Source: Phycisphaeraceae bacterium (GTDB taxonomy: Bacteria; Planctomycetota; Phycisphaerae; Phycisphaerales; Phycisphaeraceae). From it: a stretch of 21,468 bases of DNA. The stretch lies in contig JADZET010000353.1 of the NCBI GenBank assembly GCA_020850375.1, positions 1 to 21,468 of the forward strand. Reading direction: 5' to 3'. Both the position numbers and the translations under genes were made by a program. Shown here piece by piece: positions 290-21,352 of this stretch (position 1 is the first letter of the stretch; every line of letters starts with the position of its first letter). The notes beneath the pieces were generated by a model. That model searched no databases and was not told the origin of the DNA. It saw only the letters and a list, made by a program, of their open reading frames with translations.

Positions 290-314
290 AAGCCCAGGCA
301 TGGCATGCCTGGGT
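290..314 (+). repeat. Family A hairpin repeat, copy 1 (TCCTAAG-flank subtype)
   Basis: Arms CCCAGGCAT and ATGCCTGGG with loop GGC, flanked by AAG on the left and TTT on the right. It lies 17 bases after the repressor stop codon and 31 bases before the M56 gene, inside the presumed operon. The same core with the same TCCTAAG flank recurs at 10618 and 16342, and nearly the same at 21328. Confidence 0.95.
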
Positions 315-345
315 TTCCTCGCCTCTCCCACCGAAAGGCGCCCCC

Positions 346-3300
346 ATGCTCCCCTCCGATCTCTTACCTCCCCTCCTCCATCGCCTCCTGACGATGAGCC
401 TCGAAGCCTCCGTCCTGACCCTGCTCATCGCCGCCGTCCTGCTGATCTTCCGCCACCGCATCCCCCCCAGGTGGCGCTACATCCTCTGGTCCCTCGTCCT
501 CGTCAAGCTCATCCTGCCCACCTCACTCCCCACCTCCCTGAGTCTCTACAACCTTCTGCCCGCCCGACCCTCAACCCCCGCCCCCACGCTCACGCTCCCC
601 ACCCCTCTCACCCCTCCCACGCCGCCCCTGAGTCCGCGAAGGGGCGGGTATCTCCCATCCCCCATCTTCCCTCCCCCCCTCCCCGAACCACTCACACCCC
701 CCACCACCTCACTTTCCGCGCCCGTCCCCTATCTCACCGTCCTCTACCTCACCGGCGCCCTGACGCTCACGCTCCTGGTCGTCACCCAGTCCCTCCGCCT
801 CTCCCTCGCCATCCGCGCCCAGCGACCCCTCACCGACCAGACCACCCTCGACCTCCTCGAGGACGCCAAGCAGCAGATGCGCGTCCGCACCCACCTCCCC
901 CTGATCGAGACCGACCGCGTCGCCCCCCCCTCCCTCTTCGGCTTCATCCGCCCCAAGCTCCTCCTGCCCGCGCGCAGCTACGAACGCCTCCTCCGCGACC
1001 AGCTCCGCCACGTCCTGCTCCACGAGCTCGCCCACCTCAAACGCCTCGACGTCCCGATCAACTGCCTCGCCACCCTCCTGCTGATCCTCCACTGGTTCAA
1101 CCCCCTGATCTGGATCGTCCTCGCCCGCATGCGCGCCGAGCGCGAGCTCGCCTGCGACGCCATGGTCCTCGACCTCCTGCACCGCGAGCCCGACGCCCCG
1201 CACGCCTATGGCCAAACCCTCCTCGAGCTCCTCGCCGAACCCGCCCGAACACGACCCCTGGCCAACCTCGCCTGTGTCCTGGAAAACCCGCACCAACTCA
1301 AGCACCGCATCGCCATGATCGCCTCCTTCCGCCCCACCCCCTGGCTCACCACCCTCACCGCCGCCTCCCTCCTCCTCCTCCTCACCGCCGTCGGCCTCAC
1401 CCAAGCCAAACCCCACCAAGACCATCCCCCCAAGAGCAAACCCGCCGCCACCGAATCCCCAACCACGCCACCCCCAAGCCCAGGCATGGCCATGCCTGGG
1501 TCTCCTGACTCCTCCATCTCCCCCGCCACCCAACCCACCACCCGCGCCATCGGCAACGCCTACCTCATGGGCGCCATCTCCCGCCCCGGTACCTACGGCC
1601 TGCCCCCCGACGCCGACCTCACTCTCCGCAACCTCCTCGCCGCCGCCGGCGGCCTCGACACCGACCAAAAATCCGACCCCTGGATCTACCTCTACCGCAA
1701 CCAAGGCCAGAACACCTTCAAACAGATCCTCGCCGCCCCCTACACCCAGGCCATCGCCGCCCCCAACAACCCCACCGTCATCCCCGGCGACCTCATCCTC
1801 GTCACCAAGACGCCCCTGACCCCCTTTACTCCCTTCACTCCCTCCACCTCTCAGCCCCGCGTCTACCTCGAAGGCCCCGTCCCCCGACCAGGAACCTACA
1901 GCCTGACCAAAGACGGCCCCCTCACCCTCATCCAACTCCTCGCCGCCGCCGGCCTGGACCTCGCCGCGCACGGCAACGACACCATCGTCCTGCTCCGTCG
2001 AACCACCGACAAGACCGAGCAACGCATCGACGTCCACCCCGTCGACATCCTCTCCGGCGCCACCCCCGACATCTCCCTCCAGCCCAACGACATGGTCTCC
2101 GTCGTACCCCACGCCCCCGGTGTCGCCAGTCTCGTAACCCCCATCCCCCCCGCCACCCAACCTTCCTCCACCACCGATCCCCGGGCCTCCAAGCCGGGCC
2201 CTTCAGGCCCGGATGCTCCCTCCCCCGACCCCCAGCAGCGCCGCCAACCCTTCCTCGACCGCATCAACCTCGACCGCCAACGCTACTCCCCCCAGCAGAT
2301 GGGCGAGATCGAGTCCCTCTACCTCTACGCCAACAAAAACTGGGGTGCCCCCCAGGCCATCGAGAACCTCCAAACCCTCATCTCCCGCTATCCCGGCGCC
2401 AACCACACCGGCTGCGCCATGCTCTATCTCGGCCAGTTGTCCCAAGGCCCCATCAAGGAGCGTTACCTCCAGCACGCCATCGGGGACTACTTCGACTGCC
2501 TCTACGACGACGGCGTCCAGGTCGGCCCCTACGCCATGTTCCACCTCGCCCGCCACTACGCCGACAACAGCCGCCCCGCCGACGCTCAGTCCCTGCTCGA
2601 CCGACTCCGTCGCGACTACCCCACCGCCATCGACCACCAGGGCCGTCTCCTGATCGACCAGCTCCCTTCCATCCCCCCCGCCACCCAACCCGCCGCCTCA
2701 CCCTCGCCCCGCCCCGACCCCCAGCAGCGCCGCCAACCCTTCCTCGACCGCATCAACCTCGACCGCCAACGCTACTCCCCCGACCAGCGCCGCGAGATCG
2801 AGCGCCTCTACCAGGTCGCCAACAAGAACTGGCGCTCCCCCCAAGCCGTCCAGAGCCTCGAAACCCTCATCGCCCGCTACCCCGACGCCAACCGCACCGG
2901 CTGCGCCCTGCTCTACCTCGGCCAGATGTCCGAGGGCCCCACCCGCGAGCGATACCTCCTGCGCGCCATGAATGACTTCCCCGACTGCTACTACGGCGAC
3001 GGCGTCCAGGTCGGCCCCTACGCCATGCTCCACCTCGCCCACTACTACCTCAACCTCAACCGCCCCGACGACGCTCAACCCCTCCTCGACAAGATCCGCC
3101 ACGACCACCCCACCGCCATCGACCACCGAGGCCGACTCCTGATCGACCACCTCCCCGAAATGACCCCCGCCCAGACGCCACCCTCTCAGAACCTCCTCAT
3201 GAACCCGGGAGCCGAGCTTGGCTCCGACGCCCCCGCCCATTGGTCACAAGGCGCAGCCGTCCAGGGCGTCCAATACCTCTGGGACCGCCACGCCGGCTTT

Positions 3301-3672
3301 AGCAGCAACGCCAGCCTCTGCCTGACCAAGACCGCCAACCGGTATTTCCCCATCGCCCAATGGCATCAAACCGTCGAAAGAACAGGCGCCGCCCCGCGCC
3401 TCCACGTCAGCGCCCAAGTCAAGGCCGAGAACGTCACCAAAGCCATCCTCGACGTTCTGTTCCTCGACGAGAACGACCAGTGGATCCGCCACCAGTGGGT
3501 CTCATACATCGGCAGCCAAAATGACGGCGACCCCCCCGCCAACCACGACTGGAAGCCCTACGCCGGCCAGCTCGACATCCCCCAGAACACCAAGAAGATC
3601 CAGATCGGACTGCAAATCTACGGCCCGGGCAAAGTCTGGTTCGATGACATCACCGCAACATACGTCCAGTAG
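346..3672 (+). CDS. M56-family (BlaR1-like) membrane metalloprotease with SLBB, duplicated helical and C-terminal beta domains
   Basis: A 1108-residue protein; the ATG is preceded by GAAAGG at 333-338. The N-terminal ~350 residues are an M56 integral-membrane metalloprotease. Hydrophobic segments lie near 15-35, 43-58, 126-150, 237-260 and 333-350. The zinc motif is HELAH (226-230), followed by ERELACD (265-271), which contains the expected third ligand. Canonical BlaR1 ends in a penicillin-binding sensor, and none is seen here. Instead, after the last membrane segment come two SLBB-like beta-grasp regions (about 403-480 and 505-590, each with a 'G-x-RPGTY' motif), two copies of a ~150-residue TPR-like helical unit (from 628 and 791), and a C-terminal region (about 949-1108) resembling a carbohydrate-binding jelly roll (NPGAE at the start, KVWFDDI near the end). 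The extension is probably extracytoplasmic. By analogy with BlaR1 it would sense an envelope or polysaccharide signal and trigger repressor loss (inference). Repeat hairpins are embedded in frame at residues ~92-102, 377-386 and 616-624. Confidence 0.88.
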   Translation: MLPSDLLPPLLHRLLTMSLEASVLTLLIAAVLLIFRHRIPPRWRYILWSLVLVKLILPTSLPTSLSLYNLLPARPSTPAPTLTLPTPLTPPTPPLSPRRGGYLPSPIFPPPLPEPLTPPTTSLSAPVPYLTVLYLTGALTLTLLVVTQSLRLSLAIRAQRPLTDQTTLDLLEDAKQQMRVRTHLPLIETDRVAPPSLFGFIRPKLLLPARSYERLLRDQLRHVLLHELAHLKRLDVPINCLATLLLILHWFNPLIWIVLARMRAERELACDAMVLDLLHREPDAPHAYGQTLLELLAEPARTRPLANLACVLENPHQLKHRIAMIASFRPTPWLTTLTAASLLLLLTAVGLTQAKPHQDHPPKSKPAATESPTTPPPSPGMAMPGSPDSSISPATQPTTRAIGNAYLMGAISRPGTYGLPPDADLTLRNLLAAAGGLDTDQKSDPWIYLYRNQGQNTFKQILAAPYTQAIAAPNNPTVIPGDLILVTKTPLTPFTPFTPSTSQPRVYLEGPVPRPGTYSLTKDGPLTLIQLLAAAGLDLAAHGNDTIVLLRRTTDKTEQRIDVHPVDILSGATPDISLQPNDMVSVVPHAPGVASLVTPIPPATQPSSTTDPRASKPGPSGPDAPSPDPQQRRQPFLDRINLDRQRYSPQQMGEIESLYLYANKNWGAPQAIENLQTLISRYPGANHTGCAMLYLGQLSQGPIKERYLQHAIGDYFDCLYDDGVQVGPYAMFHLARHYADNSRPADAQSLLDRLRRDYPTAIDHQGRLLIDQLPSIPPATQPAASPSPRPDPQQRRQPFLDRINLDRQRYSPDQRREIERLYQVANKNWRSPQAVQSLETLIARYPDANRTGCALLYLGQMSEGPTRERYLLRAMNDFPDCYYGDGVQVGPYAMLHLAHYYLNLNRPDDAQPLLDKIRHDHPTAIDHRGRLLIDHLPEMTPAQTPPSQNLLMNPGAELGSDAPAHWSQGAAVQGVQYLWDRHAGFSSNASLCLTKTANRYFPIAQWHQTVERTGAAPRLHVSAQVKAENVTKAILDVLFLDENDQWIRHQWVSYIGSQNDGDPPANHDWKPYAGQLDIPQNTKKIQIGLQIYGPGKVWFDDITATYVQ
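621..651 (+). repeat. Family C hairpin repeat, copy 1, inside the M56 gene
   Basis: Arms CCGCCCCT and AGGGGCGG around the 10-base loop GAGTCCGCGA, followed by GTAT. The 31 bases are identical to 17413-17443, which is intergenic. Here they are read as part of a proline-rich loop (LSPRRGGYLPS) between predicted membrane segments of the M56 protease. Confidence 0.9.
1476..1501 (+). repeat. Family A hairpin repeat, copy 2, inside the M56 gene
   Basis: The core is a perfect 22-base palindrome made of CCCAGGCATGG and its complement, with the usual AAG on the left and T on the right. It is translated as SPGMAMPG at residues ~378-385, in the unstructured linker between the last membrane segment and the first SLBB-like region. 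Confidence 0.93.
2191..2216 (+). repeat. GC-rich hairpin (AAG-flanked), inside the M56 gene
   Basis: Arms CCGGGCC (2194-2200) and GGCCCGG (2206-2212) around CTTCA, with the AAG flank shared by families A and B. It is read as KPGPSGPD in a proline-rich linker just before the duplicated helical units. Only this copy is in the window, so membership in a repeat family is inferred from its design. Confidence 0.55.
2227..3162 (+). repeat. 489-base tandem duplication encoding the two helical units of the M56 protein
   Basis: The segment beginning at 2227 is repeated beginning at 2716, an offset of exactly 489 bases (163 codons). About 66 bases at the start of each unit are identical, and a second identical block lies at 2512-2538 and 3001-3027 with the same offset, so there is no net length change between the two anchors. 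Each unit encodes a TPR-like pattern (NLDRQRYSP, ETLIARYP, YLGQ, VQVGPYAM, RGRLLID). Confidence 0.9.
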
Positions 3673-3754
3673 GCCGACGTCGTCCCCCTCCCCCGCCCCC
3701 TCATCCCGTCGCAAACCCCTCCACCCACCATCCCCCCCTCATCATCAAAACCTC

Positions 3755-3782
3755 TTGTCTTTTTTCCCTTCTTCGCTATAAT
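3755..3782 (+). promoter_or_regulatory. Sigma-70-type promoter for the FHA-GspE gene
   Basis: TTGTCT at 3755-3760 and a perfect TATAAT at 3777-3782 are separated by 16 bases. The segment between them is T-rich, standing out from the C-rich surroundings. Transcription would begin near 3790 and leave an ~88-base leader before the start codon at 3878. Confidence 0.75.
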
Positions 3783-3877
3783 CCCTTCACATCTCGCACC
3801 CGCTTCCGCGACGACCCTTTTCTCGTGATCCGCCGCCGTCAACAACCGTATCTCATGAAGTGCTGAGGGAGTACAGT

Positions 3878-5827
3878 ATGCTCGCGCGAGACCACGCCTC
3901 CGCCGGCCTCCCCTCGGACGTCCTCGCCGCGAGTTCTTCGATGTCCAATATGTTCTATCTCATCTTCCAGACCCCCGGCGGAACCCGCCAGGTCGGCCTG
4001 ACCGCACAGCCCTTCACCATCGGACGAGGCTCCGGCAACGCCCTGGTCATCGACGAGGGACAAGCCAGCCGAACCCACTGCGTCATCGAGCCCGCCATGG
4101 AGACCGGCGGTTTCCAGCTCCGCGACCTCGGCTCACGCAACGGAACCAAGCTCAACGGACAGTTCGTCGCCCTCGCCCTCCTCCAGCCCGGCGACGTCAT
4201 CCAGATCGGCCGATTCTCCGTCCGTTTCTCCGACGCACCCGCCACCCTCAGCAACGGCGCCCGCGCCGCCTCCCCACCACCCTTCGCCGACCCCGCACTC
4301 AAACCCGACGCCCCCACACGCTCCGCCACAAGCCCAGGCATGGCCCTTCCGGGGGTGCCTGGGTTCCTCAAGAAAAAACCTCCCGCCCCCGCCCCCTCCC
4401 CCGACCCCGACGACACCCTCACCGACGACGACGCCATCCCCCTCGCCCCACACCAGGTCGTCACCTCCCGCAAAGTCCCCGAGGGACGAATCATCCAGGC
4501 CGCCGCCGAGGATGAGAAAACCCTCCGCATGCTCGCCCAATCCTTGCCCAATCAGCAGTTCCCCGAAACCGCCATCAGCCTCGTCAACGCCCGCGGACAG
4601 ACCGTCCACGCCGGCGACCCCCGAACCTTGACCTCCGCCGGACCCGACGGCGCCGCCGCCGCCTCCGTCGCCGAGACCGTCCGACTCCTCCGACTCCTCC
4701 TGCTCGTCTGCTTCCGCTCCCGTGCCACCGACCTCCACGTCGAGCCCAAGGAGACCCGCTTCGAGATCCGCGTCCGCGTCGACGGCATGATGGTCCGCGT
4801 CATGAACCTCCACAAGGACTCCGGCCTCAAGCTCATGAGCCTCGTCAAGATCCTCGGCGACATCGACATCGCCCAGAAGGCCGTCGTCCAAGAAGGACAC
4901 TTCACCACCGCCGTCCCCGGACGACGCGTCGACTACCGCATCAGCTTCACACCCGCCATGAACGGCCAAAAGCTCGTCGTCCGCGTCCTCGACCTCGCCA
5001 ACGCCCCCTCACACCTCCGCGACCTCGACCTCCCCCAGTGGATGTTCGAGGAGGCCCGACGACTCATCCACCAGGACGCCGGCATGGTCCTCATGTGCGG
5101 CCCGACCGGATCCGGCAAGACCACCACCCTCTACGCCATGATCCGAGAGATCGACGTCCACCAACGCAACGTCATCACCATCGAGGACCCCGTCGAGTAC
5201 CGCATCGACGGCGTCACCCAGATCCCCGTCAACGATTCCAAGGGCAACTCCTTCTCCAACCTCCTCCGCTCCGTCCTCCGTCAGGACCCCGACGTCCTGC
5301 TCGTCGGCGAGGTCCGCGACGCCGAGACCGCCAAGATCGCCATGCAGGCCGCCATGACCGGACACCTCGTCTTCTCCACCGTCCACGCCCAGAACACCAT
5401 CGGCTCGATCTACCGCCTGATGGACCTCGGCGTCGACGGCTACCTCGTCGCCTCCGCACTCCACCTCGTCGTCGCCCAACGACTCGTCCGACTCCTCTGC
5501 CCCCACTGCAAGCTCCTGCGCAAGGCCCAGCCCTCCGAGCAGATGCGCATGGCCAAGGCCGTCCAGGAACTCAACCAGCTCCCCCAGGCCGTCGGCTGCC
5601 CACGCTGCCTCGAGACCGGCTTCCACGGCCGAAAAGCCGTCTTCGAACTCCTCACCGCCACCGCCGAGATCCGCGACGTCATCCTCGCCGGCGGCGCCGT
5701 CCAGGCACTCCGAAAGGCCATGGCCAACACCCTCTTCACCAGCCTCCTCGAAAACGCCTACAAACTCGTCGCCGAGGGCCTGACCACCCTCGAAGAAGTC
5801 GAACGCGTCATCGGCACCGAATCCTGA
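3878..5827 (+). CDS. FHA domain fused to a GspE/PilB-type secretion (type II / type IV pilus) ATPase
   Basis: The ATG at 3878 is chosen because AGGGAG (3866-3871) lies at ideal distance; an in-frame GTG at 3860 lies upstream of that site. The protein has 649 residues. Residues ~24-115 form a forkhead-associated domain with the phosphothreonine-binding signature: GRG at 49, SRTHC at 64, SRNGTKLNG at 86. A proline-rich linker (about 115-190) follows and contains a family A repeat (SPGMALPGVPG). The rest is a GspE/PilB hexameric ATPase: Walker A GPTGSGKT (408-415), Asp box VITIEDPVEY, Walker B DVLLVGE (472-478), His box TGHLVFSTVHA, and a zinc tetracysteine CPHC (541) ... CPRC (574). All catalytic motifs are intact. 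It should power pilus or pseudopilus assembly from the cytoplasm, with the FHA domain docking to a phosphorylated partner (inference). The usual N-terminal GspE/PilB domains appear to be replaced by FHA. No pilin, GspF or secretin gene adjoins it. Confidence 0.92.
   Translation: MLARDHASAGLPSDVLAASSSMSNMFYLIFQTPGGTRQVGLTAQPFTIGRGSGNALVIDEGQASRTHCVIEPAMETGGFQLRDLGSRNGTKLNGQFVALALLQPGDVIQIGRFSVRFSDAPATLSNGARAASPPPFADPALKPDAPTRSATSPGMALPGVPGFLKKKPPAPAPSPDPDDTLTDDDAIPLAPHQVVTSRKVPEGRIIQAAAEDEKTLRMLAQSLPNQQFPETAISLVNARGQTVHAGDPRTLTSAGPDGAAAASVAETVRLLRLLLLVCFRSRATDLHVEPKETRFEIRVRVDGMMVRVMNLHKDSGLKLMSLVKILGDIDIAQKAVVQEGHFTTAVPGRRVDYRISFTPAMNGQKLVVRVLDLANAPSHLRDLDLPQWMFEEARRLIHQDAGMVLMCGPTGSGKTTTLYAMIREIDVHQRNVITIEDPVEYRIDGVTQIPVNDSKGNSFSNLLRSVLRQDPDVLLVGEVRDAETAKIAMQAAMTGHLVFSTVHAQNTIGSIYRLMDLGVDGYLVASALHLVVAQRLVRLLCPHCKLLRKAQPSEQMRMAKAVQELNQLPQAVGCPRCLETGFHGRKAVFELLTATAEIRDVILAGGAVQALRKAMANTLFTSLLENAYKLVAEGLTTLEEVERVIGTES
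4330..4364 (+). repeat. Family A hairpin repeat, copy 3, inside the FHA-GspE gene
   Basis: Outer arms CCCAGGCA and TGCCTGGG enclose an expanded loop containing CCCTTCCGGGGG, which can form a smaller nested hairpin. It is translated as SPGMALPGVPG in the linker between the FHA and ATPase domains (residues ~151-162). AAG lies on the left and T on the right, as in every other copy. Confidence 0.92.
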
Positions 5828-5860: not shown

Positions 5861-5886
5861 AAGCCCCGGCATGGACATGCCTGGGT
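5861..5886 (+). repeat. Family A hairpin repeat, copy 4 (CTCTGCC-flank subtype)
   Basis: Arms CCCCGGCAT and ATGCCTGGG with one mismatch and loop GGAC. It lies 33 bases past the GspE stop codon and 20 bases before the CYTH gene's stop, so it sits in a convergent junction. The downstream + strand is pyrimidine-rich (GTCTCTCTCC). Confidence 0.9.
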
Positions 5887-6494: not shown

Positions 6495-6519
6495 AAGCCC
6501 AGGCATGGCATGCCTGGGT
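6495..6519 (+). repeat. Family A hairpin repeat, copy 5
   Basis: Arms CCCAGGCAT and ATGCCTGGG with loop GGC, followed by TCTCTTTTCTTA on the + strand. It lies between two minus-strand genes, 42 bases beyond the stop of the membrane-protein gene and 18 bases upstream of the CYTH start. The T-rich side faces against the transcription of both neighbours. Confidence 0.93.
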
Positions 6520-6561: not shown

Positions 6562-7116
6562 CTACTCTCTCGCCCCCACCGCCATCTTCCGCACCACCCC
6601 CCCACCCACCGCGCGGTACCGCCGCGTCCCGAAGATCTTCCGCTCCATCCGCACGATCCGACGCGCCGACCCCTCCCGCTCCGACACCGGCAACCTCTTG
6701 AGGTAACGCCTCCCGTGATGACGCAGCGTCGACGACGACACCAGCAGCGTCAACGGCGTCGGCAGACGCTCCGCCTGCGCGATCCTGCTCAAGAGCCACT
6801 GATCCCACGGCGAAATCCCCAACCGGATCGACACCCGCACGAACGTCCACCCCGGCCGCGGCAGCGTCACCCGCCTCCCACGCTCACCCACCCAGTGCAA
6901 CCCCAACGCCAGCAGGAATGCCGCCAGCAGCAGCACCACCGCCCACCGCCCATCCAGCAGCGGCTCTCCCCCCCACACCCACATGTCCTTGAGGCTGTGA
7001 CGATTGATCGCCCCCCCCTGCGTGACGCCGAGAACGGCCAAGGCCCACGCCTCCCCGCCCCCAAGCCGGGGCGCAAGCCCCGGGTCCAATGAACGTGATG
7101 CCCACAACCTACTCAT
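6562..7116 (-). CDS. Single-pass membrane protein of unknown function
   Basis: The family is not recognised. The ATG at 7114-7116 overlaps the TGA of the upstream HEAT-repeat gene (ATGA), and GGGGGAGG lies just upstream, so translational coupling is likely. The 184 residues show one clear membrane segment (about 58-76, WAVVLLLAAFLLALGLHWVG) followed by a basic, probably cytoplasmic region: RRVTLPRPGWTFVRV, SPWDQWLLSRIAQAERLPTP, a histidine/arginine patch RHHGRRYLKR, and ARRIVRMERKIFG. The first 44 residues look poorly constrained and include a family B hairpin read as DPGLAPRL. A shorter form starting at the ATG near 6984 (MWVWGGEP) is therefore possible, though its ribosome-binding site is badly spaced. 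The tight coupling to the HEAT protein suggests the two act together. Confidence 0.7.
   Translation of the reverse strand: MSRLWASRSLDPGLAPRLGGGEAWALAVLGVTQGGAINRHSLKDMWVWGGEPLLDGRWAVVLLLAAFLLALGLHWVGERGRRVTLPRPGWTFVRVSIRLGISPWDQWLLSRIAQAERLPTPLTLLVSSSTLRHHGRRYLKRLPVSEREGSARRIVRMERKIFGTRRYRAVGGGVVRKMAVGARE
7063..7085 (+). repeat. Family B hairpin repeat, copy 1, inside the membrane-protein gene
   Basis: Arms CCGGGGC and GCCCCGG close a GCAA loop, with AAG on the left and GT on the right. The 23 bases are identical to the copies at 12989 and 17327. Here it overlaps the N-terminal codons of a minus-strand gene. Confidence 0.92.
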
Positions 7117-8945
7117 GCCGCCTCCCCCTCTTTCAGACCCGCCTGACTCCCGCGCCGCAGCACCTGACGCGCCAGCCACACCGCGCTGCGCCGATGCTCC
7201 ACCCGCTCGTCGTTGAGCATCGCCTTAAGGTGCTCCAGCCCCCGCCGCGGATGCTCCCGCAGCAACTGACCGATCGCCATCGCCCGCGGCCGGGCCGACG
7301 CCTCCACCGCCAGACGCTCGAGGTTCCCCCGCTGACGACGAACCGCCGACGGACCGAGCGTCTCGATCGCGTTCGCCCGAACCCGCGCGTCACGATGGCT
7401 CAGACCCAGCTCCAGCGTCGCCATCGCCTCGATGCTCACCACCTTCCCCAGCGTCCGCATCGACGCCGACGCCAGCACCACGTCCTGCCCCCGCGCCGCC
7501 TCCAGCAACGCCCGCTCGAACAACCCCCCCAATTCCAGCACCCCGATCATTGACATCGCCCGCAACCGCTCCCTCACGCTCCCCTCCGTCAATTTCCGCC
7601 CCAACTGATCCGCAAAGTCCGGCACAAGACGCATCATCGCCCGACCCGCCAGCACCCGCTGCCTCTGATTCAGCCTCCCCCAGCTCCCCCACAACCTCCC
7701 GAAACCCACCCCCGCCAACCGCCGCTGCGCCATCCCCGCCACCGGCCCGTGCGGCGAATTCGCCAACCGCGGAAGCATCCGCACCACCCCGATCCACCTC
7801 GAACCCTCCAACGCCCGCATCGCGATCCGCGCCACACGACCGTCCACGTCCTTGACCGCGTACTCCCCGATCGCCTCCCACACCGCGTCGACCTTCTGAT
7901 TCCGACCCAGCCCCGACAACGCCCCGACCGCCGCCAGTCGCGCCGAGACGTGCGGCAGATTCACCATCGTCCCCAGCAGCTTCGCCCGCTCCTTCACCGG
8001 CAGACCCAGCGACCCCGCCCACCGAACCAGCCCACCGCAAGCCCCCTCGCTCAGCTTCCCCCAAAGGTGCGGCGAGGGCGTCAACCGGTGCGCCTGCGCC
8101 ACCTTCGCCATCGCCCGACCCACCGACGGATCGCTCGCCAGGTGCGCCGCGCTCAGCAGCTCCTCCCACCGACCCTCCCGCGCCGCACGGTGCAGACCCG
8201 CCGCCGCCGCTCGACCGAAGTGCGGGCACGCCAGACCGCTGATCAGACTCCCGACCAGACCCTGCTCCAGCACCCTGCCCATCGCACCCACCGCGAACCC
8301 GTAAAAATCCTGCCCCGGCTGGTCCACCGCCACACGCACCGCCGACGGCCGCAACGGCATCAGCGCCAACGCCGCCAGCAGCACCTCCTCGCAACGATGC
8401 TCCCGATACCGCCGAAGACCCAGCTCCAACGCCCCGATCAACCGCCTCACCCCCTCCTCATCCTCCCCTCTGCCAAGCCCGGGCATCTTCCGGGCGGCCA
8501 TGCCTGGGGGCTTCTCAACACCCCACCTCTCCCGCACCTCGCGCGCCAGCTCCCACAGACACCCCGCCGCCTGCTCACGGATCACCCGATCCCCCGCCCC
8601 GAGCTGTTCAGCAGCCAGGTGCGACAATCTGAGATCTTTTGAATCACGAATCAGCTCAAGGATATTGACCGCAACCTGTCCGTTGCGATATACTGACGCT
8701 CGCTTCAAGCATTTCTCAAGCTGTCCCGTCCGTGACGTGATCTGCTTCTGGACCGAACCTGGCAACCGGTGGAACTGTAGGATCACTGACGAGAGCGCTT
8801 CAGGACGATCCCGCTCCAGCAGCGTCCGAACAATCCCGGGAAGGTCCTTGGCATCCGCACTCGGCATCGCCGCCGACAACGCCTGATCAACGCTGCGGTC
8901 CGAATATTTACGGAGTAACCCTAGGATCGGCTGGCCAGAACTCAT
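7113..8945 (-). CDS. HEAT-repeat protein
   Basis: A 610-residue soluble protein made mostly of paired amphipathic helices of the HEAT type, for example HVSARLAAVGALSGLGR, DGRVARIAMRALEGSRW, DARVRANAIETLGPSAV and ERVEHRRSAVWLARQVL. Such solenoids act as protein-protein scaffolds; no catalytic motif is visible. The ATG at 8943-8945 follows a GATAAT box by nine bases and has no clear ribosome-binding site, suggesting a nearly leaderless mRNA. Its stop overlaps the start of the membrane-protein gene. Residues ~145-157 (KPPGMAARKMPGL) come from a family A repeat lying between helices. The DNA for roughly the first 105 residues (about 8630-8945) is visibly less GC-rich than the rest of the gene. 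The partner is unknown; the downstream membrane protein is the best guess. Confidence 0.82.
   Translation of the reverse strand: MSSGQPILGLLRKYSDRSVDQALSAAMPSADAKDLPGIVRTLLERDRPEALSSVILQFHRLPGSVQKQITSRTGQLEKCLKRASVYRNGQVAVNILELIRDSKDLRLSHLAAEQLGAGDRVIREQAAGCLWELAREVRERWGVEKPPGMAARKMPGLGRGEDEEGVRRLIGALELGLRRYREHRCEEVLLAALALMPLRPSAVRVAVDQPGQDFYGFAVGAMGRVLEQGLVGSLISGLACPHFGRAAAAGLHRAAREGRWEELLSAAHLASDPSVGRAMAKVAQAHRLTPSPHLWGKLSEGACGGLVRWAGSLGLPVKERAKLLGTMVNLPHVSARLAAVGALSGLGRNQKVDAVWEAIGEYAVKDVDGRVARIAMRALEGSRWIGVVRMLPRLANSPHGPVAGMAQRRLAGVGFGRLWGSWGRLNQRQRVLAGRAMMRLVPDFADQLGRKLTEGSVRERLRAMSMIGVLELGGLFERALLEAARGQDVVLASASMRTLGKVVSIEAMATLELGLSHRDARVRANAIETLGPSAVRRQRGNLERLAVEASARPRAMAIGQLLREHPRRGLEHLKAMLNDERVEHRRSAVWLARQVLRRGSQAGLKEGEAA
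8475..8508 (+). repeat. Family A hairpin repeat, copy 6, inside the HEAT-repeat gene
   Basis: Arms CCCGGGCAT and ATGCCTGGG (one G-T position) enclose the expanded loop CTTCCGGGCGGCC. The flank CCTCTGCCAAG is shared with the copies at 5861, 12379 and 14015. Unlike the copies in the M56 and GspE genes, this one is read on the opposite strand from its AAG-to-T orientation. Confidence 0.9.
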
Positions 8946-9804: not shown

Positions 9805-9818
9805 CTTGGGCGCCAGCC

Positions 9819-9850
9819 CAGCTCCCCTGCTCAACTGTTCTCCTGCTCTT
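9819..9850 (+). repeat. 8-bp tandem repeat CTGYTCAM, locus 1 (degenerate)
   Basis: Four consecutive 8-base units: CAGCTCCC, CTGCTCAA, CTGTTCTC, CTGCTCTT. It ends 10 bases before the aldolase start codon. Related arrays are at 11792, 13971 and 16383, all in the same orientation. Confidence 0.7.
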
Positions 9851-9860: not shown

Positions 9861-10523
9861 ATGTCCACCGCCGACGCCATCATCCGCCACGCCCTGATCG
9901 CCATCATCCGCCTCCCCGCCCCCGACCAGCCCGGCGGACTGCACCCCCACGAATTCGCCGACCTCTGCCGTGCCCTCGCCGACGGCAACCTCCCCATCAG
10001 TGAGATCACCCTCAACACCCCCAACGCCCTCGACGCCATCCACCACGCCTCGACCGCCCTCGCCGTCCGCGCCCACGTCGGCGCCGGCACCGTCCTGACA
10101 CCCCAGGCCTGCCACGCCGCCATCGACGCCGGCGCCTCCTTCATCGTCACCCCCAATCTCAACCCCGACGTCATCGACGCCGCCCACCAGCGAAACACCC
10201 CCGTCATCCCCGGCGTGCTCACCCCCACCGAGGCCCAGCAAGCCCACCACCTCGGCGCCGACTTCATCAAGGTCTTCCCCGCCAACCTCTTCGGCCCACC
10301 CTACATCCGCGACCTGCTCGCCCCCCTCCCTCACCTCCGCCTCGTCCCCACCGGCGGCGTCCGACTCGACAACCTCTCCCAATGGCTCACCGCCGGCGCC
10401 ACCGCCCTGGGCGTCGGATCCTCACTCCTCCAAAAAGACCTCATCATCAAACGAGACTGGCCCGCCCTGACTGCCCTCGCCCGCCAGTGGTCCACCGCCA
10501 TCCAATCCCACAAACCCCGCTGA
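9861..10523 (+). CDS. eda: 2-keto-3-deoxy-6-phosphogluconate (KDPG) / 4-hydroxy-2-oxoglutarate aldolase
   Basis: The 220-residue protein matches the class I aldolase Eda over its whole length. The catalytic glutamate is in SEITLNTP (E48) and the Schiff-base lysine in FIKVFPA (K137). Other family blocks are the early IIR (R17), VGAGTVLT, ASFIVTPNLNPDVI, PVIPGVLTPTEA and VPTGGV. It cleaves KDPG to pyruvate and glyceraldehyde 3-phosphate in the cytoplasm, the last step of the Entner-Doudoroff pathway and of uronate breakdown. Substrate specificity within the family (KDPG, KHG or KDPGal) cannot be fixed from motifs. No edd or uronate genes adjoin it. The ATG at 9861 has only a weak GGAC upstream, and the leader contains tandem-repeat DNA. 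Confidence 0.93.
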   Translation: MSTADAIIRHALIAIIRLPAPDQPGGLHPHEFADLCRALADGNLPISEITLNTPNALDAIHHASTALAVRAHVGAGTVLTPQACHAAIDAGASFIVTPNLNPDVIDAAHQRNTPVIPGVLTPTEAQQAHHLGADFIKVFPANLFGPPYIRDLLAPLPHLRLVPTGGVRLDNLSQWLTAGATALGVGSSLLQKDLIIKRDWPALTALARQWSTAIQSHKPR

Positions 10524-10617: not shown

Positions 10618-10642
10618 AAGCCCAGGCATGGCATGCCTGGGT
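10618..10642 (+). repeat. Family A hairpin repeat, copy 7 (TCCTAAG-flank subtype)
   Basis: The core is identical to copy 1, with TCCTAAG on the left and TTCTTCTC on the right. It lies in the convergent junction between the aldolase and ThpR-GNAT genes, 20 bases from the latter's stop. Confidence 0.95.
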
Positions 10643-10662: not shown

Positions 10663-11709
10663 TCACCCCTGCCCCCCCTTCCACCTCTCCCGCGTCAGCT
10701 CCCAACGCGTCCCCCCGTCCACCGCCCGCAGCCCGCAACGCGTCAACAACTTCTGCCCCGCCACGTCCTCCACCGCCACCTCCGCCCACACCCGCTCGAC
10801 CGTCGGGTTCGCGTTGAACACCATCCGCACCAAGAGACCCATCGCCTTGATCGACTGACCCTTCCCCGCCGCCTCCACCGTCATCTTCACCTCCACCCGC
10901 GCCGACTTCTTCTGCCCGTCCATCACGTACGACGCCTCCCCGCAGAACGTCGCCCCCGACCGAACCGCGAAGTGCCGCCGCAACCCCTGACCCGCCAGCC
11001 CATTGAACCACCCCTGCGCCTCCTCCGACCCCCACCCCAGCCCCTTGGGCTGCTCCGTGAAACGCATCACCCGCGCGTCGTTCCACAGCCCCAACAGATC
11101 CCCCAGGTCCTCCACCCGCACCGGCGTCAGCTTCACCCCAGGCACGTCCCCGTGCGGCCGAGTCGCCAACGGCACGTTCGACGCCACCGTGTAACGCGGC
11201 CCCTGCGGACGAAGCTCGCTCGTCAGCAACTGAATCACCTCCACCCGGATCGCCCCCAATTCCGTCCCCCCGTGCGACCCCACAAACCTCACTAATTCCG
11301 CCGGCATCTCCCCCTTGACCCGCGCCAGCGTCAGGTGCGGATGCCAGGGCCGATCATCCCCCTTGATCCCCAGATCATCCAGCAGCACCCCCAGCTCCTC
11401 GACCATGTGCGACAGCGACCCCGCGTTCTCGATCCCCGTCCACACGATCTCCGGGTGCTTGTTCTCCGGGAACCCTCCCAATCCGCGCAGACGCAGACCC
11501 ATCGCCAGCAGGTTCGCCGACGCCGCGCTGATCGCCCGCGTGATCTCCGCGAACTTCGACCCCTCGGTCTCACCCAGGAATCGCAGCGTCAGGTGCAGGT
11601 TCCGGTGCGCCACCGGCCGAACCACCGGGCTGATCCTCCCCAGCGCCTCGAGCATGCGCGCCAACGCCTGATTCGGCTGCACCGTCACGGCCACAAATGC
11701 TCGCGGCAT
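10663..11709 (-). CDS. Fusion of RNA 2',3'-cyclic phosphodiesterase (ThpR/LigT) and GNAT acetyltransferase
   Basis: One uninterrupted 348-residue frame. Residues 1 to ~187 are a 2H phosphoesterase of the ThpR/LigT type with both catalytic motifs: HLTL at 39-42 and HLTL at 125-128, in contexts NLHLTLRFLGE and WHPHLTLARVKG. This family opens 2',3'-cyclic phosphates on RNA ends, acts on tRNA halves, or ligates them. Residues ~196-340 are a RimJ/RimL-type GNAT acetyltransferase: LTPVRVEDLGDLLGLWND, acetyl-CoA loop AAGKGQSIKA, helix GLLVRMVF, and the final pattern EDVAGQKLLTRCGLRAV. The start at 11709 has AGGAAGGG five bases upstream. ThpR is usually a stand-alone protein of about 180 residues, so a tail-to-head fusion to GNAT is unusual. 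It may process or modify RNA ends, tRNA or ribosomal proteins (inference). Confidence 0.88.
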   Translation of the reverse strand: MPRAFVAVTVQPNQALARMLEALGRISPVVRPVAHRNLHLTLRFLGETEGSKFAEITRAISAASANLLAMGLRLRGLGGFPENKHPEIVWTGIENAGSLSHMVEELGVLLDDLGIKGDDRPWHPHLTLARVKGEMPAELVRFVGSHGGTELGAIRVEVIQLLTSELRPQGPRYTVASNVPLATRPHGDVPGVKLTPVRVEDLGDLLGLWNDARVMRFTEQPKGLGWGSEEAQGWFNGLAGQGLRRHFAVRSGATFCGEASYVMDGQKKSARVEVKMTVEAAGKGQSIKAMGLLVRMVFNANPTVERVWAEVAVEDVAGQKLLTRCGLRAVDGGTRWELTRERWKGGQG

Positions 11710-11791
11710 GTCAACCCTTCCTCGAAACCCCTGCCCTAAACCCTAACCCTTATCCTACCCTCCCCGCAACCCCACCCTCTCATCTCCTCCC

Positions 11792-11815
11792 CTGTTCAAC
11801 TGCTCAACTGCTCCC
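11792..11815 (+). repeat. 8-bp tandem repeat CTGYTCAM, locus 2
   Basis: Three exact-length units: CTGTTCAA, CTGCTCAA, CTGCTCCC. It lies in the 165-base divergent spacer between the ThpR-GNAT and flavoprotein genes, just upstream of the latter's -10 box. Confidence 0.8.
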
Positions 11816-11832
11816 AGCCCCCCTCCCCACGT

Positions 11833-12378: not shown

Positions 12379-12404
12379 AAGCCCAGGCATTGCTATGCCT
12401 GGGT
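12379..12404 (+). repeat. Family A hairpin repeat, copy 8 (CTCTGCC-flank subtype)
   Basis: Arms CCCAGGCAT and ATGCCTGGG, loop TGCT, then TGCCTTTGTTC. It fills most of the 78-base convergent junction between the flavoprotein and release-factor-like genes. Confidence 0.93.
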
Positions 12405-12988: not shown

Positions 12989-13011
12989 AAGCCGGGGCGC
13001 AAGCCCCGGGT
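12989..13011 (+). repeat. Family B hairpin repeat, copy 2
   Basis: Identical to the other family B copies: arms CCGGGGC and GCCCCGG around GCAA. It occupies the short divergent spacer between the release-factor-like and CPBP genes and ends 12 bases before the -10 box of the latter. Confidence 0.92.
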
Positions 13012-13970: not shown

Positions 13971-14002
13971 TCGCTCAACTGCTCACCTGTTCAACTGCTC
14001 AC
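13971..14002 (+). repeat. 8-bp tandem repeat CTGYTCAM, locus 3
   Basis: Four units: TCGCTCAA, CTGCTCAC, CTGTTCAA, CTGCTCAC. It starts six bases after the CPBP stop codon and ends 12 bases before a family A hairpin. Confidence 0.85.
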
Positions 14003-14014
14003 TCGCCCTCTGCC

Positions 14015-14048
14015 AAGCCCAGGCATTCCCGGGGGGCCATGCCTGGGT
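14015..14048 (+). repeat. Family A hairpin repeat, copy 9 (CTCTGCC-flank subtype)
   Basis: Arms CCCAGGCAT and ATGCCTGGG with a 12-base loop TCCCGGGGGGCC, followed by TGCCTTTCTCTTCTTC. It is in the convergent junction between the CPBP and GH42 genes, 15 bases from the latter's stop. Confidence 0.93.
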
Positions 14049-16341: not shown

Positions 16342-16366
16342 AAGCCCAGGCATGGCATGCCTGGGT
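16342..16366 (+). repeat. Family A hairpin repeat, copy 10 (TCCTAAG-flank subtype)
   Basis: The core and TCCTAAG flank are identical to copies 1 and 7. It lies between two minus-strand genes, 44 bases beyond the stop of the membrane-anchored unknown and upstream of the GH42 promoter. Confidence 0.95.
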
Positions 16367-16382
16367 TGCCTCCTCTTCTCTC

Positions 16383-16414
16383 CTGCTCAACTGCTCACCT
16401 GCTCCCCTGCTCAC
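16383..16414 (+). repeat. 8-bp tandem repeat CTGYTCAM, locus 4
   Basis: Four units: CTGCTCAA, CTGCTCAC, CTGCTCCC, CTGCTCAC. The TCA of the last unit (16411-16413) is, on the minus strand, the TGA stop of the neighbouring gene. It is 16 bases from a family A hairpin, as at locus 3. Confidence 0.88.
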
Positions 16415-17067
16415 TCCCCCCCCACCATCTCCCTGACCATCTCCCACACCGTCACCCGATCCAATTCTTGCTCTACCTCTTTCTCAATCTCCGAAAAATC
16501 CTTCACCGCCGGCGCCGTCGTCAACCTCGCCGGCTCATCCCCCTCACGCCGCGTCAGCGCCAGCGACCCATCCCCCGACACCGTCACCACCCACCTCCCC
16601 TCCTCCAGGCTCCGGTACACCGCCTTCCCATACAAACTTCCCGGGGCCGCCCAGTCCACCCTCTCCAGCGCCGGGTCGATCACCACCGCCATCGCCGGCG
16701 CCGTCTTCGCGTCAAACACCCGCCGGATCCACAGCCGCCCCTCGCGCACCGCGAAGTCCACGTAGATCTCCCCCTTCGGGTCGAACGGCGTCTCGATCAC
16801 CCGCTCCTCCCCATCCGCCGTCCGCACCGCCACCGACAGCTTCCCTTCCTTGACCACCAGCTCCGTCACCGCCGTCCTCTTGACCGCCTGGTTGTACATC
16901 CCCACCAACTGCGCATGCTCCTGGCTGAGCGCCCGCAGCCGCCCCCGGTACACCGACGCCGCCAGCCGCGCCTCGAGCAGCCGGTACGTCGCCATCCCCG
17001 CCGCCGCCAGCAGCACGATCAGCGCCACGGTCTTCAGCCACGCCACCGGGTTGATTTTCACCGCCAT
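16411..17067 (-). CDS. Membrane-anchored protein of unknown function
   Basis: A 218-residue protein with one N-terminal membrane segment (about 10-30, LKTVALIVLLAAAGMATYRLL), then a helical stretch likely to form a coiled coil (AASVYRGRLRALSQEHAQLVGMYNQAVKRT). A beta-rich domain follows: TELVVKEGKLSVAVRTADG, ETPFDPKGEIYVDFAVREGRLWIRRVFD, WVVTVSGDGSLALTR. It ends in an acidic helix (KDFSEIEKEVEQELDRVTVWEMVREM). It resembles unnamed proteins conserved in planctomycetes, from memory; no function is known to me. The bulk is probably on the outer face of the membrane. The ATG at 17067 has AGGA seven bases upstream. Its stop codon is supplied by the tandem repeat at 16383-16414. It is divergent from the tRNA gene. 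Confidence 0.75.
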   Translation of the reverse strand: MAVKINPVAWLKTVALIVLLAAAGMATYRLLEARLAASVYRGRLRALSQEHAQLVGMYNQAVKRTAVTELVVKEGKLSVAVRTADGEERVIETPFDPKGEIYVDFAVREGRLWIRRVFDAKTAPAMAVVIDPALERVDWAAPGSLYGKAVYRSLEEGRWVVTVSGDGSLALTRREGDEPARLTTAPAVKDFSEIEKEVEQELDRVTVWEMVREMVGGE

Positions 17068-17181: not shown

Positions 17182-17255
17182 GGGCGATTAGCGCAGTTGG
17201 CTAGCGCGCCTCTTTGACGTAGAGGAAGTCACAGGTTCGAATCCTGTATCGCCCA
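17182..17255 (+). tRNA. tRNA-Val, anticodon GAC
   Basis: A full cloverleaf can be drawn. The acceptor stem GGGCGAT pairs with ATCGCCC. The D arm has GCGC/GCGC, the anticodon stem CCTCT/AGAGG has loop TTGACGT (anticodon GAC), and the T arm is ACAGG TTCGAAT CCTGT. The discriminator base is A and the CCA end is not encoded. GAC reads the valine codons GTC and GTT, and GTC is abundant in the C-biased + strand genes. It is a single isolated gene with its own promoter and a strong terminator. Confidence 0.96.
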
Positions 17256-17264
17256 CTTCCAAAG

Positions 17265-17293
17265 CCCAGGGCCCCCCGGCCCTGGGTCTTTTT
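17265..17293 (+). terminator. Intrinsic terminator of tRNA-Val
   Basis: A perfect 9-bp stem (CCCAGGGCC at 17265-17273, GGCCCTGGG at 17278-17286) with loop CCCC, followed by TCTTTTT. The outer bases AAGCCCAGG ... CCTGGGT are the same as the outer frame of family A repeats. Confidence 0.93.
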
Positions 17294-17326: not shown

Positions 17327-17349
17327 AAGCCGGGGCGCAAGCCCCGGGT
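17327..17349 (+). repeat. Family B hairpin repeat, copy 3
   Basis: Identical to the copies at 7063 and 12989, in the same orientation, 16 bases before a family A repeat. Confidence 0.93.
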
Positions 17350-17365: not shown

Positions 17366-17390
17366 AAGCCCAGGCATTGCATGCCTGGGT
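17366..17390 (+). repeat. Family A hairpin repeat, copy 11
   Basis: Arms CCCAGGCAT and ATGCCTGGG with loop TGC, followed by GATTTTCTGT. A run of A (CAAAAAAAACAAG) precedes it, which in the minus direction reads as a T tract, so it could terminate transcription both ways between tRNA-Val and the converging regulator gene. Confidence 0.94.
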
Positions 17391-17412: not shown

Positions 17413-17443
17413 GCCGCCCCTGAGTCCGCGAAGGGGCGGGTAT
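17413..17443 (+). repeat. Family C hairpin repeat, copy 2
   Basis: The 31 bases are identical to 621-651. It lies 33 bases past the stop codon of the minus-strand REC-GGDEF-EAL gene. The rest of the spacer to 17476 is a pure pyrimidine-type C/T stretch with no other feature. Confidence 0.92.
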
Positions 17444-19228: not shown

Positions 19229-19458
19229 CTCAAGACTCCGTCAAATCATCCAGATCCGACGCTCGGGGCGCAAACCACCATCAACCCCTCGTGGACCGTG
19301 CCCGAAACACATCACAGCCCCGAGAACCGGAACCGCAAGAACATCCACTTTCAAATATCGGTGATTTCCCGAGAGCCGTTCACACCGCAGGCAGATTAAA
19401 ACCGATCACGCATCAATGCCATCCCCCCTGCGCCCACCCCCCCCCGCCGACCCGTGGC
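19229..19458. other. 230-base intergenic region
   Basis: This is the spacer between the DUF3592 gene (ending at 19459) and the start of the REC-GGDEF-EAL gene. About 19235-19415 is richer in A+T than most of the window and presumably holds the promoter of the regulator gene, but I see no convincing -35/-10 pair, no hairpin repeat and no RNA gene. The end near 19430-19458 is a C-rich stretch. Confidence 0.5.
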
Positions 19459-20538
19459 CTATTCCAGCACCAAAGACCACTTCCGTATATTTCCCGTCCA
19501 CTCCTTCCCCCCCACCGTCACCCACACCTCCCACTCCCGCCTCGGATAACCCCACGCCGACCACGCCGTCGAACCATGACGCTTGAGCGTCGGCACGTCG
19601 AACGACACCTCCTTCACGTACACCTGCCCAGGCGTCAGCACCACCTCCCCACCCACACGCGCCGACGCGAAATAGCTCCGCTCCCTGCTCAGCAAACCCT
19701 TCCGCTCCACGCACGCCAACGCCGCCGTCACCTGCTCAACCTTCCTCTTCCGCTCACCCCCCGACAGCTCCACCCGAACGTGCACCGGCAGGTCCACCCG
19801 CAGCGCCGGCAGCGTCGCCGACACCCACGCACCCACCTGACCCTGCGCCCTGAAAAAACACACCATCCCCACCACCCCCAGGCACACGCACCACACCCCG
19901 TACAAACCAAAGATCATCCCCACCCCCTGCCCGTCACGAGCCTCGAACACCGACCAGCACATCCACCCCACCAGCACCCCGTAAACCACCCCCGCCGCGA
20001 ACACCCCCAGCCACCACCCCGCACGACGTCCCATCGACCACCGCTCCCGCAGCCGATACCACCCCGAAGGCCCCCTCGTCACCGGCCGGGGCGACCCATC
20101 CAACACCCCCCCCAACGTCACCACCCCCCACAGCAACGCCACCCCGAAACCCGCCGACAGCATCATCGCAAACGGCCACAACCGCACCCGCCTCAGCAGG
20201 TACGACTCCCCAGGACGCCTCGGATCATAAAACGCCGTCACGGGCCTGCCCAACGGCACCTCCGACAGCAACCCCTCAATCTCCCGCGCCGTCCCACGCC
20301 ACGGCAACGCCGTCAGCTCGTTGCCCGTCCGACCGATCCCCCCCGCCTCGTAACGATACTCCACCAAACCCCGATACCTCCCCCCCGACGCGTACACCAC
20401 GTCCTTGCTCAGCACCACCGCCGGCGCAGCCTCATACCTCTCGAGCCGTCGCTGCTGCTCCCTCGCCTGCTCAAACCCATAGATCCCCGCCCCAAGGCAG
20501 ATCACCCCCCAGATCGCTACGATCCACGCCGCTCGCAC
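19459..20538 (-). CDS. DUF3592-domain membrane protein
   Basis: The 359-residue protein begins with GTG at 20536-20538, preceded by AAGGAGG at a nine-base gap. The first hydrophobic segment (about 5-22) may be a membrane anchor. Residues ~38-118 fit DUF3592: PAVVLSKDVVY, YRGLVEYRYEAGG, then LGRPVTAFYDPRRPGESYLLRR, the characteristic 'G..V..yYdP..P' ending. Further membrane segments follow near 120-145, 177-197 and 208-230 (GWWLGVFAAGVVYGVLVGWM; FGLYGVWCVCLGVVGMVCFF). The C-terminal ~120 residues form a soluble beta-rich region with repeated short strands (VDLPVHVRVELSGG, YVKEVSFDVPTLKRHG, WEVWVTVGGKEW), somewhat like the DUF3592 fold again. The function is unknown. It stands alone, divergent from the nitroreductase gene. 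Confidence 0.78.
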   Translation of the reverse strand: MRAAWIVAIWGVICLGAGIYGFEQAREQQRRLERYEAAPAVVLSKDVVYASGGRYRGLVEYRYEAGGIGRTGNELTALPWRGTAREIEGLLSEVPLGRPVTAFYDPRRPGESYLLRRVRLWPFAMMLSAGFGVALLWGVVTLGGVLDGSPRPVTRGPSGWYRLRERWSMGRRAGWWLGVFAAGVVYGVLVGWMCWSVFEARDGQGVGMIFGLYGVWCVCLGVVGMVCFFRAQGQVGAWVSATLPALRVDLPVHVRVELSGGERKRKVEQVTAALACVERKGLLSRERSYFASARVGGEVVLTPGQVYVKEVSFDVPTLKRHGSTAWSAWGYPRREWEVWVTVGGKEWTGNIRKWSLVLE

Positions 20539-20588
20539 CGCGACAGGCCTCCTTCACGCTCCCCGCTCCACACTCTACTAAATCCCCC

Positions 20589-20617
20589 TTGCCCACGCCC
20601 CCCTCAACCCCTAAAGT
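20589..20617 (+). promoter_or_regulatory. Promoter of the nitroreductase-like gene
   Basis: TTGCCC (20589-20594) and TAAAGT (20612-20617) are 17 bases apart. Only six bases separate the -10 box from the ATG, so the transcript should be leaderless, and no ribosome-binding site is present. Confidence 0.6.
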
Positions 20618-20623
20618 CCACCC

Positions 20624-21292
20624 ATGACCACCACCCCACCCCCCATGGTCCCCTACTCCAACCGCTACCTTCCCAGCACCCCCCCGGAAGTCGCCGCCAA
20701 AACCTTCTACGAAATCCTCGCCCGACGACGCTCCGTCCGCGAGTTCTCTAACCGCCCCGTCTCCCAAGAGGCCATCGAATGGCTCATCCGCTGCGCCGCC
20801 TCCGCCCCCAGCGGCGCCAACAAACAGCCCTGGCGCTTCGTCTGCGTCTCCAACCCCGACCTCAAACACCAGATCCGACTCGCCGCCGAGGAGGAAGAAC
20901 GAGCCTTCTACGCCGGCCGCGCCAACCCCGAATGGCTCGCCGACCTCGCCCCCCTCGGCACCGACCCCGACAAAGCCTTCCTCGACGTCGCCCCCTGGCT
21001 CATCGTCGTCTTCAAGCTCGCCTCCACCGACGAAGGCACCCAGGTCTACTACGTCAACGAGTCCATCGGCATCGCCGTCGGCTTCCTCCTCACCGCCATC
21101 CACCACGCCGGACTCGTCGCCCTCACCCACACCCCAAGCCCCATGAAGTTCCTCGCCCAGCTCCTCCACCGCCCCGACAACGAACGACCCTACCTCCTGA
21201 TCCCCGTCGGATACCCCGCCGAAAACTGCCAAGTCCCCCTCCTCGCCACCCAACGAAAACCCCTCGACCAAGTCATGATCCTCCAAAAATAA
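20624..21292 (+). CDS. Nitroreductase-family flavoprotein, iodotyrosine deiodinase-like
   Basis: A 222-residue FMN-dependent nitroreductase-fold protein. General motifs are [13 protein letters not shown] (34-46) and [10 protein letters not shown] (61-70), which contact FMN. The best match I know is iodotyrosine deiodinase (IYD, reductive dehalogenation of halotyrosines). The shared features are EEEERAFY (89-96), [47 protein letters not shown]-like LIPVGYP, and the ending [10 protein letters not shown], against human KRKPLDQIMV. The three lid residues that hold the substrate's amino acid end in IYD (E157, Y161 and K182 in human) have counterparts with the same spacing: E92, Y96 and K117. Unlike the mammalian enzyme it has no membrane anchor. 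True substrates in bacteria are uncertain. It is followed by a sulfatase gene on the same strand. Confidence 0.85.
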
Positions 21293-21327
21293 CCCCAGCG
21301 CCCCATCCCCCCAACACGCCCCCTCCT

Positions 21328-21352
21328 ATGCCCAGGCATGGCATGCCTGGGT
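21328..21352 (+). repeat. Family A hairpin repeat, copy 12
   Basis: The core is identical to copies 1, 7 and 10, with TCCTATG instead of TCCTAAG on the left and TTTCC on the right. It lies 35 bases after the nitroreductase stop and 25 before the sulfatase start. Confidence 0.94.

Follow-up and report, generated by a model that had tools for sequence, protein, structure and literature searches.

The 21,468-nt stretch of a Phycisphaeraceae bacterium analysed here (positions 1-21468, the window) was found to contain twelve hairpins of one family (family A, arms CCCAGGCAT and ATGCCTGGG), and these are probably repetitive extragenic palindrome (REP)-like non-autonomous elements which rely on a divergent transposase (Y1 HUH) of the REP-associated tyrosine transposase (RAYT)/TnpA-REP kind. 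This reading is based on a gene of a relative, G001, which is bracketed by the hairpin and carries it internally, and on hairpins of the same class at related genes, together with the absence of the window copies from the syntenic G001 stretch and the agreement of orientation with strand composition. The orientation of the copies tracks strand composition and not transcription. The window organism is a relative of the Phycisphaeraceae metagenome-assembled genomes SJ709 (G001) and SJ746 (G002).

The twelve hairpins were found at the starts given by an earlier sequence-only reading of the window, all in one orientation. Perfect pairs of the two arms with a spacer of up to 30 nt were present nine times in the window and in none of 100 dinucleotide shuffles, and a sequence-blind scan for hairpins with arms of at least 8 gave 13 in the window, while five sequences from a first-order Markov model yielded 1, 7, 2, 1 and 5; the family A hairpins are not an artefact. 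Changed arm bases were found in three copies (4330, 5861 and 8475). The 5′ foot was found to be [C/T]AAG in eleven copies and TATG in the copy at 21328, by which the left mark reported earlier (AAG, once ATG) was borne out throughout, whereas the right T was present in eleven copies and replaced by GGCTTC at 8475, the orientation of which was judged from the left foot only. Both marks, left AAG and right T, were found on ten of the twelve copies. As palindromic hairpins of 20-50 nt with many dispersed copies (12 in 21 kb), they agree with REPs in size and copy number.

The transposase gene and the hairpins around it

Several Y1_Tnp genes of relatives were found to be bracketed by recurrent hairpins. 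With six bracketed Y1_Tnp-type proteins as queries against the collected loci, a relative of 204 aa was found in G001 (L217:9655-10269, minus strand). A RAYT gene had been proposed earlier as worth looking for, and this RAYT-like gene was found to be bracketed by family A hairpins, about 34 bp past the stop (9599) and about 55 bp before the start (10325), and to carry a symmetric family A copy inside it at 9895, in frame. Bracketing of a Y1 HUH gene by the same hairpin was seen in G001 and not in the window.

The 204-aa protein is a divergent Y1 HUH protein. The residues His100, Tyr183 and His187 were found to be invariant in 86 sequences and His98 was present in at least 90% of them, giving the HUH motif and the catalytic tyrosine. 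All 86 sequences contained a Y---H motif, and neither the Y---NP motif of class 2 nor the Y---Q motif of class 1 and IS200/IS605 was found. The predicted fold is nearest to TnpA-REP and to the TnpA of IS608 and ISDra2. No match above the cut-off was found between the G001 protein and Pfam Y1_Tnp or NCBIfam NF047646, and none of the six scanned subfamily members passed either cut-off. Of the 120 subfamily proteins listed, those to which a source gives a name are mostly called hypothetical protein, and the Tyr-x3-His group has probably been overlooked so far. A match to the G001 protein was present in 98 of 400 genomes of the order.

Hairpins of the class, defined by a foot AGCCC or AGCCG and at least 7 perfect pairs, were examined at 30 loci among the matches listed. 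They were found within 200 bp upstream of 18 of the 30 related genes, inside 15 and within 120 bp downstream of 15, and the remaining 76,308 bp of the loci contained 11. The in-gene copies all fell between 0.51 and 0.61 of the gene; the aligned proteins contain a stretch of variable length between the HUH and Tyr motifs. A scan of these loci which required AGCC gave 17 different 9-bp stems, all starting with CCC[A/G], perfect and gene-specific, and the hairpins around the RAYT-like relatives contained the conserved foot AGCCC[A/G] followed by fully compensated inner stems. Many of these hairpins were symmetric, and one gene-associated stem, at G012 (L367), is the family A stem itself.

The second hairpin family of the window (AAGCCGGGGCGCAAGCCCCGGGT) belongs to a G002 relative of the G001 gene. 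This Y1_Tnp gene (L288:10174-10791, minus strand) was found to be accompanied by second-family hairpins at 10120(-), 10196(+) and 10798(-), of which the copy at 10196 lies in the tail of the listed open reading frame (ORF) and the copy at 10798 just before the gene start. An inverted pair of the second family was seen at this gene, whose reading frame seems to be disrupted towards the 3′ end.

Two more RAYT-like genes of G001 (L241:4967-6100 and L347:3950-4700) were found to be bracketed by hairpins of different, likewise abundant families (CACACAGCA, GCCCCGCAT); the gene at L241 passes NF047646. An IS200-type gene of G004 (L349:4270-5320) was flanked on either side by CCCAGGGC hairpins in inverted pairs, the feet being AAG...T.

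Orientation of the hairpins and strand composition

The + strand of the window was found to contain a GC skew of -0.28 to -0.48 in all 20 segments of 2 kb and is C-rich whatever the gene strand. Over positions 1-21468 the strand asymmetry is extreme and constant (GC skew about -0.39) and independent of gene strand; a typical skew is given as about 2.5% in the part of SkewDB drawn on here (PMC8941118). Since the whole + strand is C-rich, the twelve like-oriented copies of this single contig count as one block of evidence and not as twelve.

Each copy was given an orientation from its feet, and this was set against the GC skew of the surrounding ±10 kb, an absolute skew above 0.08 being taken as clear. 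The stretches of G001 and G002 were those around model or DNA matches among the matches listed, not whole genomes, and copies on one contig share the skew of that contig. Repeats of one sequence were merged before counting. For the window, the + orientation was assigned by hand; a scoring rule gave + for 12 of 12, and the strict rule requiring both marks fits 10 of 12. Copies outside the window to which the feet gave no orientation were skipped; a separate count, which took in some loose matches, put these at 10 for G001 and 2 for G002. Of the 48 copies at clear skew and away from contig ends, 47 had the AAG side 5′ on the C-rich strand (window 12/12, G002 10/10, G001 25/26), by which the link to strand or replication direction proposed from the window is upheld. 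This count excludes copies whose absolute skew did not exceed 0.08 (10 from G001, 1 from G002 and the full set of 13 from G004), those of symmetric form (6 from G001 and 9 from G055) and the 26 of G001 that lie no more than 800 bp from a contig end. With exact stems only, 17 of 18 copies in G001 and 9 of 9 in G002 were concordant. For the second family, searched with up to 3 changes and with duplicates between overlapping loci removed by hand, the orientation agreed with the strand in 3/3 copies of the window (7063, 12989 and 17327, oriented like family A there), 7/9 of G002 and 4/4 distinct copies of G001; of the two G002 exceptions, one is among three copies crowded at the transposase gene and one is elsewhere.

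The orientation may alternatively be the trace of strand-biased mutation on symmetric palindromes, AAG...CTT losing one foot. The strong strand asymmetry of these genomes speaks for such an origin, and so do the many symmetric hairpins at related RAYT-like genes, which make it probable that one foot was changed. However, from its base composition the window would be expected to show the opposite orientation (left G and right T versus left A and right C, likelihood ratio 0.37), and G001 hairpins with stems other than CCCAGGCAT, CCCACGGAT and CCCAGGG, taken by the same flank rule, were concordant with the skew in 16 cases and discordant in 16 (by subtraction). The mutational origin is considered unlikely, although it is the best of the alternatives.

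Somewhat less likely still are intrinsic transcription terminators reused many times, with a stem and a U-rich tail at gene 3′ ends. Each of the nine intergenic window copies was found to have a gene 3′ end 16-87 bp away (by a small gene finder), and most have C/T-rich tails on the + strand. In G004, where the skew is near zero, AAAG...TTTT is the form of most family A copies, and of the 8 tandem ones 6 were sense-oriented with T-rich tails; in G055 nine of nine copies were symmetric AAAG...CTTT. Terminator-like use in G004 is possible. Bidirectional intrinsic terminators, which are stems at gene ends with an A-tract foot and a T-tract foot, resemble the G055 hairpins, but the hairpins of the window, G001 and G002 are asymmetric and oriented by strand and not by transcription. 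The tandem intergenic copies were found in sense and antisense orientation in the ratio of 1:3 in the window, 1:5 in G002 and 5:8 in G001, so that orientation did not match the upstream gene in most cases (2 sense and 8 antisense for the window and G002 together), and all five sense-oriented copies at clear skew follow the skew. The suggestion of selection or origin at the RNA level is not supported by these counts. It had been noted earlier that + strand RNA can extend the stem, and the + strand transcript did fold more stably in all twelve copies (mean -18.46 versus -16.58 kcal/mol), but in most copies this comes from the G.U and A-U foot pairs themselves. Three window copies lie within genes, and the bracketing of RAYT-like genes and the insertion into them would be left unexplained. 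Family A is not a plain terminator; a terminator side use of the hairpins is possible.

Relatives, positions and gene context

A scan of genome contigs for the AAG hairpin gave 80 loci among the matches listed, of which 67 were planctomycete, many from SJ709 and SJ746. Exact family A arm pairs were found in G001 (57 in 3.6 Mb), G002 (10 in 2.5 Mb), G003 (22) and G004 (9). The AAG hairpin was present in 6 of 51 genomes of the family of G001, and the asymmetric AAG...T form in 6 of 400 genomes of its order (exact pattern). G001 is the nearest relative by GspE (67% identical), and nine window genes, from CYTH to the Rce1-like gene, keep their order and relative direction in G001:C57. The copies at 6495, 8475, 10618 and 12379 lie inside this syntenic block and those at 5861 and 14015 at its borders, whereas no family A hairpin with arms of at least 8 was found in the syntenic 20-kb stretch of G001; the window copies have therefore either arisen in one of the two lineages or disappeared from the other. 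In the alignment of the HEAT protein with its G001 ortholog, gaps of 12 and 3 residues flank the stretch encoded by the 8475 element.

The family A contexts of the window were four convergent, four tandem (one of which actually lies between a tRNA gene and a minus-strand gene), one at the window edge and three in genes. With nine of twelve copies intergenic, placement is mostly extragenic at gene 3′ ends as in REPs. The three ORFs containing a copy encode an M56 peptidase/SLBB protein, a GspE-like ATPase and a HEAT-repeat protein (Pfam).

Table 1. Hairpins of family A and of the second REP-like family in the window
Feature	Position	Strand	Description and context
Family A hairpin	290..314	+	AAG, 21-nt palindrome and T; 20 bp past the end (272) of a + strand gene
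Family A hairpin	1476..1501	+	within M56/SLBB ORF 346-3672; frame remains open
Family A hairpin	4330..4364	+	imperfect, long loop; within GspE-like ORF 3860-5827
Family A hairpin	5861..5886	+	one arm change; between convergent genes
Family A hairpin	6495..6519	+	between tandem minus-strand genes, 43 bp past the end of one and 27 bp before the start of the next
Family A hairpin	8475..8508	+	long loop, without right-hand T; within HEAT-repeat ORF 7113-8945
Family A hairpin	10618..10642	+	between convergent genes (KDPG aldolase / LigT-GNAT)
Family A hairpin	12379..12404	+	between convergent genes (PNPOx / RF-1 domain protein)
Family A hairpin	14015..14048	+	long loop; between convergent genes (Rce1-like / GH42)
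Family A hairpin	16342..16366	+	between tandem minus-strand genes
Family A hairpin	17366..17390	+	between tRNA gene (+) and GGDEF-EAL gene (-)
Family A hairpin	21328..21352	+	ATG replaces AAG; 38 bp past nitroreductase gene
Second REP-like family AAGCCGGGGCGCAAGCCCCGGGT	7063..7085	+	AAG...GGGT, different stem
Second REP-like family AAGCCGGGGCGCAAGCCCCGGGT	12989..13011	+	between divergent genes
Second REP-like family AAGCCGGGGCGCAAGCCCCGGGT	17327..17349	+	past tRNA gene

Past the tRNA gene (region 17182-17287), the hairpin AAGCCCAGGGCCCCCCGGCCCTGGGTCTTTTTG at 17262-17287 was found to contain the same AAG...T feet in the same orientation and is the clearest terminator-like hairpin in the window. 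An identical 26-nt hairpin, CCGCCCCTGAGTCCGCGAAGGGGCGG, was present twice in the same orientation, at 622-647 inside the M56 ORF and at 17414-17439. Degenerate ACTGCTCAACTGCTCACCTG-type repeats were found in runs on the + strand at 9805-9848, 11779-11828, 13974-14014 and 16370-16427, two of the four adjoining family A copies. The M56/SLBB/TPR gene contained a 300-nt direct repeat (84%) at 2218-3006, and at 10663-11709 a LigT-type RNA ligase/phosphoesterase domain was found to be fused to a GNAT domain.

Many family A copies at contig ends of G001 adjoin a longer repeat. This repeat (L268:10343-14642 and contig ends) is a hairpin mosaic of up to about 700 bp which at many contig ends terminates with a family A hairpin, the contig being broken on the AAG side in most of those listed.

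Known systems, mechanism and meaning

In the parts of the sources drawn on here (PMC2817692, PMC3733652 and PMC8266576), canonical GT[AG]G REPs with their RAYT/TnpA-REP are short multi-copy palindromes near gene 3′ ends, some within genes, in which the hairpin brackets a Y1 HUH gene and each transposase has its own stem, all of which was also found here. In contrast, the foot of family A is AAG and not GT[AG]G, the twelve window copies are single and in one orientation with no inverted pairs of the kind formed by REP doublet forming hairpins (REPINs) or bacterial interspersed mosaic elements (BIMEs), and the orientation is tied to strand composition. Family A is not a GTAG REP. According to the passages used of Quentin et al. 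2018 (PMC6006769), the 'double foot' REPs of TnpA-Y1 subclass 2.4 likewise contain a foot and its reverse complement, but there the foot is GT[AG]G...C[TC]AC and the motif YIxNNP, described mainly from Cyanobacteria and Bacteroidetes, whereas AAG...CTT and Y---H were found here in Phycisphaerae. The same passages describe a class 3 with Planctomycetes among its hosts, atypical hairpins and high copy number in at least one host, which agrees with the present family, although its motif is Y----Q and its foot CnGA and not Y---H and AAG. The likeness to IS200/IS605 (IS608, ISDra2) lies in the predicted fold, HUH, one tyrosine and the hairpins; unlike these elements, the present group is without Y---Q, and in G001 a single gene match stands beside dozens of dispersed hairpins that lack a gene.

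For the REP-like elements proposed here, the protein would recognise the hairpin in single-stranded DNA, with AAG as a guide-like foot, cut beside it and join copies into single-stranded gaps at replication forks. Each copy would by this joining land in one orientation relative to fork movement, and insertions may be tolerated at gene 3′ ends and in flexible linkers. A more specific form is advanced tentatively: a fourth Y1 HUH class (Tyr-x3-His, in Phycisphaerae and relatives) might paste its own AAG-footed palindromes into one fork arm, giving strand-locked single REPs across the whole chromosome, with the gene keeping a copy of its palindrome at a fixed site in the coding sequence. IS200/IS605 elements are stated to prefer the lagging-strand template in the part of PMC6006769 used here, and for the AAG strand to be the lagging-strand template used by IS608-type elements, the C-rich strand would have to be leading. 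In G001, the C-rich strand carries the gene run that surrounds ribosomal protein L2, and some 10 kb past dnaA the skew changes sign from + to -, which suggests a C-rich leading strand; the usual origin neighbours were not among the ten proteins checked around dnaA.

A number of observations weigh against the proposed reading. The signals for the leading strand conflict, with rpoB of G001 on the weakly G-rich strand and gene strand counts favouring the G-rich strand (76:46 in the G002 loci and 245:228 in G001), which suggests the opposite polarity with the G-rich strand leading. The 26 G001 copies within 800 bp of contig ends were 6 concordant, 12 discordant and 8 near zero; they were separated only after their deviation had been seen, and with them the concordance of G001 at clear skew is 31/44. 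No insertion or excision was seen at base level in the comparison with G001, which is too distant for it (GspE 67%). Family A was found to be symmetric (AAG...CTT) in G003, mostly with both feet, and in G055 (9/9 scored), no family-A-bracketed gene was found in either of these genomes, and G003 and G031 were not among the 98 genomes with a match to the G001 protein. No RAYT-like gene was seen among the window genes, and 12 of the 30 related genes were without an upstream class hairpin, several of them without any.

The least probable alternative is selection for a replication-polarised DNA signal, of which Chi and FtsK-orienting sequences are examples, which would maintain a single orientation irrespective of how the copies arrived: orientation is tied to the strand in two hairpin families whose stems differ (47/48; 3/3, 7/9 and 4/4), but relatives vary widely in density, with 9 exact copies in the 21 kb of the window and 57 in 3.6 Mb of G001, the asymmetric form is lacking in 394 of 400 genomes of the order (exact pattern), which would be odd for a cell-cycle signal, and the G001 contig-end copies do not obey.

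The description of family A as an undescribed element seems right for the family itself, but not for its kind: the AAG foot, the Tyr-x3-His motif and the strand-bound orientation are new here, whereas the REP/RAYT kind is already known. The mechanisms of REP dissemination are called poorly understood in the part of PMC8266576 drawn on here. With genomes in which nearly all single REPs are strand-oriented, fork-coupled single-strand transposition would be directly testable at genome scale, and two hairpin families and two related transposases would serve as internal replicates. The orientation rule is the part likely to surprise a specialist, and it could reveal the spread of REPs at replication forks.

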